A stretch of 64,000 bases of DNA from Prosthecobacter debontii (lineage in GTDB: Bacteria > Verrucomicrobiota > Verrucomicrobiia > Verrucomicrobiales > Verrucomicrobiaceae), in contig CAMAQH010000008.1 of the NCBI GenBank assembly GCA_945860295.1, positions 62,001 to 126,000 of the forward strand, read 5' to 3'. The notes beneath the pieces are model-generated. The model saw nothing but the letters and a program-made list of their open reading frames with translations, was not told where the DNA came from and made no database searches. This document shows positions 2,160 through 4,844 of this stretch, in pieces. The number at the start of each line of letters is the position of its first letter. Positions within the stretch are counted from its first letter, which is position 1. Made by a program: the position numbers and the translations under genes.

Positions 2160-2344
2160 GGTTAGGAAAAGACGGCGCGCTCCATCGCCTCCAATGCCGC
2201 GTTTCTCAAGGCCGATTCCGTGCGACAAGACACCTGGGAATTCCGTTTGCATCTCAGGGGAAGCGCTCCACACTCCGCGCTCTTTTTGCCGCCTCTAACA
2301 GACGGCACATTTCAACTGAGTCCCACCTTATAACCTCACGAGCC

Positions 2345-3523
2345 ATGCCTGCGAAAAAGAAACCAGCGCCCAAAGCTCCGGCTAAAGCCGCGAAAAAAGC
2401 CCCAGCCAAGCCAGCTCCTAGAAAGCCAGCCAAGCCAGCTCCCAAGAAGCCAGTGAAGTCTGCCCAGCCCGCGCCTAAACCGAAGGCAAAAACTCCTGTG
2501 GGAAAAAAAGTGGTCAAATCTGCCGCCAAAAAATCCCCCCCTGTGAAGAAAGTTCCCGTTAACGCAGTCCCCCCTGCCAAGAAGCCTGCCCTCAAAAAGG
2601 CTTCTACCAAGCCAGCCGCAGCAGCTAATAAAGCTCCTGCCAAGCCAGCTGCTGCAGCCAAGAAAACTGCAGCCAAGAAAACTGCGGCCAAGCCAGCTGC
2701 AGCAGCCAAGAAAACTGCGGCCAAGTCTCCAGTGCCAGTTAAGAAACCAGCAGCCAAAGCAACTGCACCAGTAAAGAAACCAGCAGCCAAAGCACCCGCG
2801 CCTGCGCCGAAGGTTGTTGTCAAAGCAACTCCTGCCCCTGCGCCAAAGGTGGTCGCAAAGGCAGAGGCTACCAAGAAGCCTGCCCCAGCACCGATTCCAG
2901 AAAAACCAGCGACCAAAGCTAACAATGGCCCTCTGGTGAAGATCACCAATGCCAAGCGCACTGCCAGTCTTGTCGATGATGGCATCACGATGGAAGCAGG
3001 TCCGAAAAAGCCCGTGCTCCCAGCCGCCTTCCTCAAAAAGCAGCGCATCCGCCTGATCGAACTGCGTGACCTTTACATGAACGCCGCAGAAGGCGTCGCC
3101 AATGAAAGCCTACGCAACAACGATGGCAATGAGTCAGCATTCGGAATGCATCAAGCCGATGCTGGCAGCGATGCTTATGACCGCGACTTTGCGCTGAGCC
3201 TCCTGGCCAAGGAACAGGACGCTATTTATGAAATCAACGAGGCGCTCAAGCGCATCGACTTTGGCACCTACGGCATCTGCGAGATGTCAGCTGATGTGAT
3301 TTCTGAGGAGCGTCTGGAAGCCTTGCCATTCACTCGCTTCACCGTCATCTGCCAGGGCCGCTTGGAAAGTGAGCAGCGTAGTGGCCGCTGGAACCGCCCA
3401 GTGCGCTCCCTATTTGGTCTGGATGAAACCGCTGAAGATGCCGACGACGACAAGGACGAAGAAGAGACAACTACACAGAGTAGCGGCAACGCCAATGAGT
3501 CGCTTGACTTCAGTAAAGAGTAA
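2345..3523 (+). CDS. DksA/TraR-family protein with long Lys/Ala/Pro-rich N-terminal tail
   Basis: The 392-residue protein has two parts. Residues 1 to about 195 are a low-complexity tail built from KKPA/KPAAAAKK-type units, like eukaryotic H1 or bacterial histone-like C-tails, and would bind nucleic acid or another polyanion. Residues about 220-345 match the DksA/TraR coiled-coil and zinc-finger region, including ALKRIDFGTYGIC. Only the outer two of the four zinc cysteines remain: C312 and C336 have the exact 24-residue spacing of the first and last Cys, while positions 315 and 333 are Ser and Thr. The C-terminus is acidic. It leads a probable operon with rpmG and rpsR. DksA proteins act on RNA polymerase; whether this one does is unknown. 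Confidence 0.85.
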   Translation: MPAKKKPAPKAPAKAAKKAPAKPAPRKPAKPAPKKPVKSAQPAPKPKAKTPVGKKVVKSAAKKSPPVKKVPVNAVPPAKKPALKKASTKPAAAANKAPAKPAAAAKKTAAKKTAAKPAAAAKKTAAKSPVPVKKPAAKATAPVKKPAAKAPAPAPKVVVKATPAPAPKVVAKAEATKKPAPAPIPEKPATKANNGPLVKITNAKRTASLVDDGITMEAGPKKPVLPAAFLKKQRIRLIELRDLYMNAAEGVANESLRNNDGNESAFGMHQADAGSDAYDRDFALSLLAKEQDAIYEINEALKRIDFGTYGICEMSADVISEERLEALPFTRFTVICQGRLESEQRSGRWNRPVRSLFGLDETAEDADDDKDEEETTTQSSGNANESLDFSKE

Positions 3524-3546
3524 CCTAGCATCACCATCCCAATTTT

Positions 3547-3720
3547 ATGGCACGAGAAATTATCACCTTGGAATGCACAGAGGCTAGAGCCGAAGGCAAA
3601 TCCCCTTCACGCTACGTCAGCACCCGCAACAAAAAGAGTCCGAATACTCCCGGACGCCTTGAGAAAGTGAAATTCAATCACTTCCTCAAGCGCCGCACTC
3701 TGCACCGTGAGATTCGCTAA
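3547..3720 (+). CDS. rpmG: 50S ribosomal protein L33
   Basis: A 57-residue protein of the large ribosomal subunit. The opening [14 protein letters not shown] and the motif [17 protein letters not shown], followed by a basic tail ending HREIR, are diagnostic of L33. Length is normal. Only one cysteine is present (C10), so this is the zinc-free (C-minus) form. It begins 23 bp after the DksA-like gene and is followed 18 bp later by rpsR, so the three are probably co-transcribed up to the terminator at 4011-4051. Confidence 0.97.
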
Positions 3721-3738
3721 TCTGCCGCACCCCACCTC

Positions 3739-3978
3739 ATGCAACCGAAGACTACCGAACGCCTCATCTCCCTGCGCAAAAACAACCGCAGGATGCCCCG
3801 CCGCCGCATGGACATCCCTGTGGATAAGCTAATTTATAGCAACCCAGAATTGCTTCAGCGTTTCCTCAGCGAGACTGGCAAACTTATCCCACGTCGTGTC
3901 ACAGGCCTACCTGCTTGGCTCCACCGCAAGGTGACCCGCGAAGTGAAGCGTGCCCGCTCCGTCAATCTGCTGCCATAA
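3739..3978 (+). CDS. rpsR: 30S ribosomal protein S18
   Basis: A 79-residue small-subunit protein that contacts S6 and 16S rRNA in the platform. The core matches S18: DKLIYSNPELLQRFLSETGK, then LIPRRVTGLPAW and the basic REVKRARSVNLLP end. The N-terminus is short and basic. Pairing of S18 with L33 is common, although S18 is more often beside S6 and L9, which are not present here. It is the last gene of the unit before a strong intrinsic terminator. Confidence 0.95.
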   Translation: MQPKTTERLISLRKNNRRMPRRRMDIPVDKLIYSNPELLQRFLSETGKLIPRRVTGLPAWLHRKVTREVKRARSVNLLP

Positions 3979-4010
3979 ACTGGTAGCTATGGTGCTGTGA
4001 AATTCACCTC

Positions 4011-4051
4011 TTCCCACTGTTGCCACTTCGCAGCAGTGGGAATTTTTGTTT
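4011..4051 (+). terminator. Intrinsic terminator after rpsR
   Basis: Perfect 9-bp arms TTCCCACTG (4011-4019) and CAGTGGGAA (4034-4042) enclose a 14-base loop and are followed by TTTTTGTTT. It closes the DksA-like/rpmG/rpsR unit. It ends only 4 bp before the folE2 start codon, so folE2 either has an overlapping promoter or is read partly by readthrough. Confidence 0.85.
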
Positions 4052-4055
4052 ACCC

Positions 4056-4844
4056 ATGCCAACTCTCAAAGACACGCAAAACGAGCATGATGATCGCCGC
4101 ATCGCCATCGACCGCGTCGGTGTAAGGGATGTGCGCTTCCCACTCCGCATCCGCGACCGTGATCAGGCCACTCAACACACCGTGGCCATTGTCAATATGG
4201 CCGTGGATCTGCCGCATCATTACAAGGGCACCCACATGAGCCGCTTTGTCGAAGTGCTGCACGCTTATGGTCGTGAACTCAGTGTAGCAGGCATCGCGGC
4301 CATGCCCAAAGAGCTACTCACTCGCCTGCACGCCAAGAAAGCGCATGTCGAAATGCGCTTCCCCTACTTCCGCGCCAAACGCGCACCGGTGAGCAAGGCT
4401 GAAGGACTCGTGGACTACGGCGTCATTTTTGAAGTGAATGCCGAGGAGGATAAGATCGATTACGTCGTCACGGTCGAGGTGCCGGTCACCACACTTTGCC
4501 CCTGTTCAAAAGCCATCAGCGAGCGCGGAGCCCACAATCAGCGCGGCCTCGTGACGCTCTCCGTCCGCTTTCACCAGCCCATCTGGATCGAGGATCTCAT
4601 CGAACTCGTCGAAGCCAGCGCCAGCAGCGAGCTTTACAGCCTGCTCAAGCGTCCCGATGAAAAAGCTGTCACTGAGCGCGCCTACGACAACCCCGTCTTC
4701 GTCGAAGACCTCGTCCGCAGCATCGCCCAAAAGGCATCCGCGCATGAGCTCATCAAGTGGTTCAAGGTCGAGGCCGTGAACTACGAGTCCATCCACAATC
4801 ACAACGCCTGGGCCGTGATCGAGCGAACGACTGGCAAGGATTAA
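4056..4844 (+). CDS. folE2: GTP cyclohydrolase FolE2 (type IB)
   Basis: Converts GTP to 7,8-dihydroneopterin triphosphate, the first step of folate (and queuosine) biosynthesis, in the cytoplasm. The 262-residue sequence shows the FolE2 signature: PVTTLCPCSKAIS with the catalytic cysteine, GAHNQRG just after it, and an N-terminal RFPLRIRDRD region. The family is the metal-flexible, zinc-independent alternative to FolE and has no sequence similarity to it. I start at MPTLKDTQ because the residues encoded further upstream derive from the terminator hairpin. It stands alone and is followed by the sulfatase gene after 57 bp. Confidence 0.93.
   Translation: MPTLKDTQNEHDDRRIAIDRVGVRDVRFPLRIRDRDQATQHTVAIVNMAVDLPHHYKGTHMSRFVEVLHAYGRELSVAGIAAMPKELLTRLHAKKAHVEMRFPYFRAKRAPVSKAEGLVDYGVIFEVNAEEDKIDYVVTVEVPVTTLCPCSKAISERGAHNQRGLVTLSVRFHQPIWIEDLIELVEASASSELYSLLKRPDEKAVTERAYDNPVFVEDLVRSIAQKASAHELIKWFKVEAVNYESIHNHNAWAVIERTTGKD

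Follow-up and report, generated by a model that had tools for sequence, protein, structure and literature searches.

A DksA-like protein with a histone H1-like tail and no four-cysteine zinc site heads a ribosomal-protein operon in Prosthecobacter debontii

Introduction

What does a DksA-type protein do when two of its four zinc ligands are replaced, when a long Lys/Ala/Pro-rich tail precedes it, and when its gene heads a set of ribosomal-protein genes? The question is raised by a dksA-like gene of Prosthecobacter debontii, which lies on contig 8 of a 4.7-Mb draft assembly that is 95% complete and which we analyzed within a window of 64,000 nucleotides, the stretch of that contig to which all coordinates below refer. 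An earlier note on this DNA had described the protein as an unusual fusion with a half-lost zinc finger and had suggested a link between nucleoid or RNA binding and ribosome supply. Its observation was confirmed by the analysis reported here, and its interpretation was partly supported.

Results

Gene organization and a predicted promoter

As had been proposed, the gene is the first of a ribosomal-protein operon, being followed at short distances by rpmG and rpsR (Table 1), whose products score above the Pfam cut-offs and are the sole L33 and S18 matches in the genome. dksA and rpmG were adjacent in 52 of 56 genomes, and the exceptions were two genomes in which neither gene was found (G013 and G016), one with only a tail-less paralogue (G021) and one in which the two genes lie on separate contigs (G049). 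Among cores followed by at least 600 bases of sequence, S18 lay downstream of 108 of the 110 from close relatives (throughout, loci L001-L165 minus L050) and of 0 of the 50 from more distant members of the phylum; L33 lay downstream of 90 of the same 110, a count obtained with a single L33 query that probably misses divergent L33. The terminator-like hairpin that follows rpsR is one feature of a region in which the terminator scan returned 9 such sites against 4.0 expected, and a crude scan found hairpins at 3 of 15 other same-genus loci.

Table 1. Features of the dksA locus in window coordinates.
Feature	Position	Strand	Description
prfC	probable ATG 2159	opposite direction	upstream gene, named by inspection
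Predicted promoter	2247..2280	+	TTGCAT 2247-2252, 16-base spacer, CACACT 2269-2274, GC-rich discriminator CCGCGC 2275-2280
dksA-like ORF	2345..3523	+	ATG start, 392 aa
N-terminal tail, aa 1-195	2345..2929	+	Lys/Ala/Pro-rich, net charge +51, predicted to bind nucleic acid; no in-frame stop
Linker, aa 196-223	2930..3013	+	from the tail to the start of the aligned core
DksA-fold core, aa 224-354	3014..3406	+	two-helix coiled coil and zinc-finger-like head without the four ligands
E296	3230..3232	+	aligned to E. coli K98 (ppGpp contact)
C312	3278..3280	+	first zinc position
S315	3287..3289	+	second zinc position
T333	3341..3343	+	third zinc position
C336	3350..3352	+	fourth zinc position
Q337	3353..3355	+	aligned to E. 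coli K139 (ppGpp contact)
Acidic C-terminal extension, aa 355-392	3407..3520	+	14 D+E, 2 K+R; terminal ESLDFSKE
rpmG (L33)	3547..3720	+	gap of 23 bases after dksA
rpsR (S18)	3739..3978	+	gap of 18 bases after rpmG
Terminator-like hairpin	4011..4042	+	13 pairs and a T run, after dksA-rpmG-rpsR
folE2	4056..4844		beyond the terminator-like hairpin; profile matches

Upstream of the start codon lies a site that we predict, from its conservation, to be the promoter of this unit. The pattern TTGCNN-N16/17-CANNNT-CCGCGC (CGCGC at L010) was present in 26 of 26 same-genus loci whose 5' end was intact and readable, a count that leaves out three loci that are too short (L002, L012 and L027), and its −10 hexamer stood 66-86 nt before the ATG. 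It was absent at L029, where the contig breaks off within the gene, and at all 18 readable loci of the same order outside the genus, where starts were assigned crudely; the script total is 26/45. Within 928 kb (464 kb of the organism's own genome, both strands) the pattern occurred once, at this site, and it occurred four times when the first base of the −10 hexamer was left free. The −10 hexamer CACACT is weak, and a generic promoter scan, which returned 2 sites against 0.7 expected, does not list the site. What the scan did list is a sigma-70-type promoter-like site at 3504-3531 (TTGACT, 16-base spacer, TAGCAT), at the end of dksA before rpmG, which raises the possibility that rpmG-rpsR have a promoter of their own. 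A search for RNA elements gave no Rfam match at 2200-4100.

Fold of the core

The reading of the protein as DksA-like, made in the earlier note from the sequence, was borne out by its predicted fold. The best PDB sequence match of the core was Chlamydia DksA (6ptg, E 2e-16), and further matches were an Agrobacterium DksA-like protein (8e-6), DksA2 (2e-5) and E. coli DksA (0.014). AlphaFold, for which the input was the protein together with 45 named relatives, gave a mean pLDDT of 78.3 and a pTM of 0.64, with values of 90-94 in the head and 53-56 at the coil tip. When the model was searched with Foldseek, the top match was DksA2 (4ijj; rmsd 1.8, TM 0.71 by query length and 0.80 by target length), followed by E. 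coli DksA and then Chlamydia DksA, and all six matches at E<=0.001 were one of these three proteins. The model thus shows a core with the DksA fold, nearest to that of the zinc-free DksA2.

The Pfam family PF01258, with a cut-off of 24.9 bits, has a single match in the genome, this gene, which scored around that threshold (24.4 bits with the full-length protein, 25.8 with the core and 28.7 in the genome search). Both NCBIfam dksA equivalog cut-offs were missed by a wide margin (TIGR02420, 36.7 vs 115.5 bits; NF033459, 52.0 vs 105 bits), and the top NCBIfam match, the YteA family of Bacillus (TIGR02890; 74.2 bits for the core and 71.9 for the whole protein), was itself well below its curated cut-off of 134.4. 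The protein had no Pfam match to CarD_CdnL_TRCF at E<=1.

The coil tip reads D272-A-G-S-D276, a D-x3-D spacing in the part of the model with low confidence, where E. coli DksA has D-x2-D-x-A. D272 was invariant in 22 aligned rows, as were H269, A273, G274, R280 and D281. Beyond the zinc positions, residues 337-392 (3353-3520) contain RPV(R/H)SLFGL, an acidic run and an ESLDF[SG]KE end; this terminus was present in 30 of 30 same-genus loci, SLFGL was seen again in several other families, and the C-terminal extension is possibly a docking peptide. A second, more distant DksA-like protein was seen in a few same-genus genomes (G008, G014, G015 and G021), and the copy in G021 (L050) has the ligands CTTV and is without a Lys/Ala/Pro tail. 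A limited, open-licence literature yielded no biochemistry on any member of the group.

Loss of zinc ligands

C312, S315, T333 and C336 occupy the four zinc positions, as had been read from the sequence, and the resulting site, C-x2-S-x17-T-x2-C, is non-canonical; the protein has two cysteines in all 392 residues and no C-x2-C-x17-C-x2-C finger. Describing the finger as half lost in this one gene proved too narrow a view, in that close relatives share the loss, and in 21 of 30 same-genus loci the last cysteine has gone as well. We compared 164 distinct cores, drawn from 214 rows and still including two doubtful rows (L189 and L050), and found the ligand pattern CSTC in 78, CCCC in 31, CTSY in 16, CSTS in 6 and the remainder in small classes. 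The 80 named loci among these are the best 80 of 470 found through group-specific peptide patterns and the 50 distant rows were hand-picked at about one per family, and the tallies are not unbiased frequencies. None of the 113 distinct cores from close relatives had a four-Cys site, compared with 31 of 50 from more distant members of the phylum, the other 19 being without it. The 30 same-genus loci comprised 9 with CSTC and 21 with the first cysteine only (CTSY 16, CSTS 4, CTSW 1), and four close relatives had three cysteines (CCTC), a state compatible with stepwise loss of the ligands.

Judging from the lack of any four-Cys core among these 113, the loss of zinc ligands is old and is not an error. 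Sequencing error at this site was also rejected on the ground that the pattern is common to independent assemblies; the earlier note had allowed for such an error, with four-Cys homologues as its mark. Unrooted trees gave at least 4 changes between the four-Cys state and its absence for 96 cores, 3 of them forced by starred branches, and at least 5 changes, 3 of them forced, for 94 cores with the ligand columns masked and L189 and L050 omitted. These trees were built by a quick method from few columns and have long branches, weak deep forks and no root; they indicate that the four-Cys state likely changed repeatedly, and they do not prove whether the direction was loss or gain.

One explanation for the two cysteines that remain is a role in redox switching or in holding metal at a two-Cys site; in its favor, the first cysteine is retained throughout the 164 distinct cores, and CSTC is the commonest pattern. 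We consider this most improbable, because a required pair would not be lost so readily: the residue at the fourth zinc position varies, being Ser, Tyr or Trp in 25 of the 164 cores (19 of them same-genus loci) and Glu, Met, Val or His among further close relatives. The absence of the last cysteine from most of the genus indicates, as far as alignment can, that C336 is not generally required.

Another explanation is that dksA, rpmG, rpsR and folE2 form a zinc-sparing set of zinc-independent back-ups for zinc starvation, like dksA2, which is under Zur control. A DksA-like protein without a four-Cys site and a FolE2 gene downstream of it are what such a set would contain, and the zinc-free DksA2 of Pseudomonas is reported to be expressed only in zinc starvation (PMC9213440). 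However, we set a zinc-starvation operon aside as highly improbable: the genome showed no zinc-using partner that these genes could replace, with a single match each for PF01258, L33, S18 and FolE2 and none for FolE. In addition, folE2 lies past the terminator-like hairpin and is on a separate contig from dksA in five genomes (G036, G041, G047, G049 and G052). Among the relatives FolE2 was the only type of GTP cyclohydrolase I found (PF02649 in 55 of 56 genomes and FolE, PF01227, in 0 of 56). It is possible that the lineage has permanently settled on low zinc use.

Residues at the ppGpp site

In E. coli DksA, residues K98, R91, K139, L95 and R129 are reported to contribute to ppGpp site 2 (PMC7676912). 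The positions of K98 and K139 are here taken by E296 and Q337, which were invariant in 22 members of the order, while L95 aligns to A293, R129 aligns to L327 and R91 falls at an alignment gap. Counted ungapped from the first cysteine, position 98 in the 133 non-four-Cys cores was Glu in 131, Lys in 1 and Asp in 1, position 139 was Gln in all 133, and position 129 was Arg in 4. The 31 four-Cys cores, counted in the same way, had Lys at position 98 in 2, Arg in 3 and Lys in 10 at position 129, and Lys at position 139 in 19. From this comparison, the change at K98 is not tied to zinc loss and the change at K139 is partly tied to it.

We also searched for the enzymes that would supply the alarmone. 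RelA_SpoT (PF04607) had no match in the source genome at its 95% completeness, under a search that gave matches in 11 of 14 control genomes, and it was found in 4 of 56 relatives (G002, G009, G029 and G048). In a phylum-wide sample it was found in 15 of 288 genomes (one of them below the cut-off), compared with 278 of 288 for the DksA profile, the two samples being the same by their listed handles. A report from 2011 described RSH proteins as absent from the PVC superphylum (PMC3153485). The scattered RelA_SpoT domains, which sit in open frames ranging from 128 to 958 aa, appear to belong to accessory or mobile alarmone synthetases rather than to a housekeeping RSH.

These domains bear on the possibility that the protein is an ordinary DksA whose ligand, be it ppGpp or another nucleotide, is made by a small alarmone synthetase and contacted through different residues. 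The presence of RelA_SpoT in a minority of relatives and of phylum members speaks for it. However, none was found in the source genome, DksA far outnumbers RSH across the phylum, and the charge at position 98 is reversed at a site where, in E. coli, K98A and R129A are reported to abolish ppGpp binding at site 2 and to leave RNA polymerase binding and the shortened life of promoter complexes intact (PMC7676912). On this evidence an ordinary, nucleotide-using DksA is very unlikely.

The polymerase itself offered two further observations. The omega match (L236, on contig 9 of G000), read from a chosen internal Met, begins MKAELVEQA and has no MAR start, with which E. coli omega begins; in this comparison, which depends on the chosen start, omega seems to be without the N-terminus that serves ppGpp site 1 in E. 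coli, and that site may therefore be altered too. No match to beta' (PF04983) was found in the assembly, although all 14 control genomes gave one, which makes a gap in the assembly likely.

The N-terminal tail

The joining of about 195 Lys/Ala/Pro-rich residues to a DksA domain was confirmed: the tail contains 59 Ala, 52 Lys and 41 Pro, together 78% of its residues, with 53 K+R against 2 D+E. The earlier note's view that such a fusion is unusual holds within the organism's own genome sample, where the dksA-like ORF was the only one of 446 greedy ORFs (464 kb, ~10% of the genome) to contain an 80-aa stretch with at least 60% K/A/P and at least 18% K, and does not hold for the phylum. At least 40 aa upstream of the core with K+A+P of at least 50% were found in 75 of 103 close-relative and 21 of 47 more distant cores (distinct and untruncated, with start codons set by a simple rule). 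Tail length varies among these relatives, and several, such as L036, L105, L113 and L128, have a short tail and retain the core.

We considered whether the tail could result from a wrong start codon and rejected this, given a conserved start motif, the lack of in-frame stops and a dN/dS below 0.25 in 7 pairs. The motif, M[PS][AS][KN], was seen in 27 of the 30 same-genus loci, and contig ends truncate the three without it (L002, L027 and L029); the reading frame of the tail is open, whereas forward frame 2 contains 3 stops and forward frame 3 contains 8; and mixed codons are used for each of Lys, Ala and Pro. Tail dN/dS was 0.12-0.24 in 7 of 8 pairs and saturated in the eighth, in a set of 7 same-genus pairs and 1 from another family of the order that overlap in membership and whose low-complexity tails align loosely. 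Taken as support rather than proof, these values suggest that the tail evolves as coding sequence under purifying selection. An antisense ORF of 264 aa (2254-3048, minus strand) overlaps the tail, two of whose reverse frames are stop-free; stop-free reverse frames are expected from low-complexity codons, and this ORF is most likely not a gene.

The tail matched no Pfam family at E<=10, in a search with HMMER filters that cope poorly with low-complexity sequence. By composition, and by that measure alone, it is H1-like, and with its basic charge it may well bind nucleic acid. It could be argued from this that the protein is chiefly a nucleoid (histone-like) or rRNA-binding protein whose DksA domain hardly affects RNA polymerase, since the strongly basic tail makes up about half of the chain and the ppGpp positions are lost. 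We regard this as unlikely in view of the core, which is under far stronger constraint than the tail (dN/dS 0.01-0.08 in the same set of pairs), has coil-tip residues invariant in 22 rows and is retained in short-tailed relatives. A combined search for DksA, lysine-rich and N-terminal extension returned nothing from the open-licence literature.

Discussion

We favor, with a probability of about 0.6, the reading that this protein is a zinc-free, ppGpp-independent DksA that is held near nucleic acid by its H1-like tail and perhaps tunes its own ribosomal operon. The basis in sequence and model consists of a DksA fold that lacks a C4 site, the replacement of the ppGpp contacts, the lack of any RelA/SpoT domain found in the genome, the coding character of the tail, the linkage to rpmG-rpsR and the conserved promoter-like site. 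Against this reading stand the spacing of the coil tip, NCBIfam scores below the cut-offs, a tail of loosely conserved length without a Pfam match, a promoter motif that is limited to the genus and has a weak −10 hexamer, and the failure of Chlamydia DksA, which by sequence is the nearest protein of solved structure, to complement E. coli.

That Chlamydia protein (C. trachomatis, 6ptg) has Cys at the first zinc position only (C, S, T, S) and Gln at both the K98 and K139 positions, where the protein described here has Glu and Gln, and its host is reported to possess DksA and to lack ppGpp-synthesis genes; the same report states that it does not complement the E. coli growth defect (PMC10995303). 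It differs in being a 132-aa chain with neither a Lys/Ala/Pro tail nor a long acidic C-terminus and in belonging to an intracellular parasite. DksA2 of Pseudomonas aeruginosa (4ijj), the best match by fold, likewise has two cysteines and no zinc (PMC9213440). In contrast to the single DksA-type gene found here, it is a tail-less paralogue of a four-Cys DksA that is expressed in zinc starvation only, and in its ppGpp-using host it has retained Lys, Arg and Lys where E. coli DksA has K98, R129 and K139. E. coli DksA (1tjl, 5vsw and 7khi) shares the fold but has a four-Cys zinc finger, the residues of ppGpp site 2 and no basic tail.

TraR of the F plasmid has a zinc finger, is 73 aa long and is tail-less. 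Like the protein in our proposal, it is described as a secondary-channel DksA homologue that acts without ppGpp (PMC9304144), and it differs in that it mimics the DksA-ppGpp pair. For the tail, the nearest analogue is CarD of myxobacteria, which is reported to combine an RNA polymerase-binding module with a K/A/P-rich, HMGA-/H1-like disordered domain and an acidic segment, and to need the HMGA/H1-like DNA-binding domain for full activity (PMC4374960, PMC9304148). This is analogy and not kinship, in that the CarD module is unrelated and binds beta and its basic domain is C-terminal.

On the favored reading of a tethered, ppGpp-independent DksA, the head would very probably fold without structural zinc, as in DksA2, and the coiled coil would probably enter the RNA polymerase secondary channel and shorten the life of weak promoter complexes without ppGpp. 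By analogy with CarD, we think it rather likely that the H1-like tail would tether the protein on DNA or nascent rRNA and so raise its local concentration near the polymerase; the acidic C-terminus might hold the tail in check. Promoters inhibited by DksA and ppGpp typically have GC-rich discriminators, as a tendency (PMC9304144), and the promoter-like site with its GC-rich discriminator suggests that the protein may restrain its own ribosomal-protein unit. We propose more tentatively that it might repress this promoter through the discriminator, such that its dose would track ribosome supply and partly replace the ppGpp signal. In a bolder version, which we regard as doubtful, this branch would have dropped the ppGpp alarm and rebuilt DksA into a brake on RNA polymerase that needs neither zinc nor a signal and is tethered to chromatin; the protein would set its own level by feeding back negatively on its ribosomal-protein promoter, and the invariant Glu/Gln of the former ppGpp pocket would stand in for the alarmone at the polymerase rim.

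Loss of zinc ligands in the DksA of a host without ppGpp has a precedent in Chlamydia. New here, on sequence evidence, are the H1-like tail, the conserved Glu/Gln at the former ppGpp contacts and the conserved promoter-like site with its discriminator. If the tail binds DNA, the protein would join CarD as the second kind of factor in which a module that binds RNA polymerase is fused to a histone-like domain. The link to ribosome supply suggested in the earlier note gains a specific, testable form from the replaced ppGpp contacts, the lack of any RelA/SpoT domain found and the conserved promoter-like site with its GC-rich discriminator. The matter bears on how bacteria that lack (p)ppGpp adjust ribosome synthesis to supply. 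In a phylum where nearly all sampled genomes keep DksA and few show a RelA/SpoT domain, the operon, promoter-like site and domain boundaries delimited here offer a direct way to test, in free-living bacteria, what DksA does without ppGpp.
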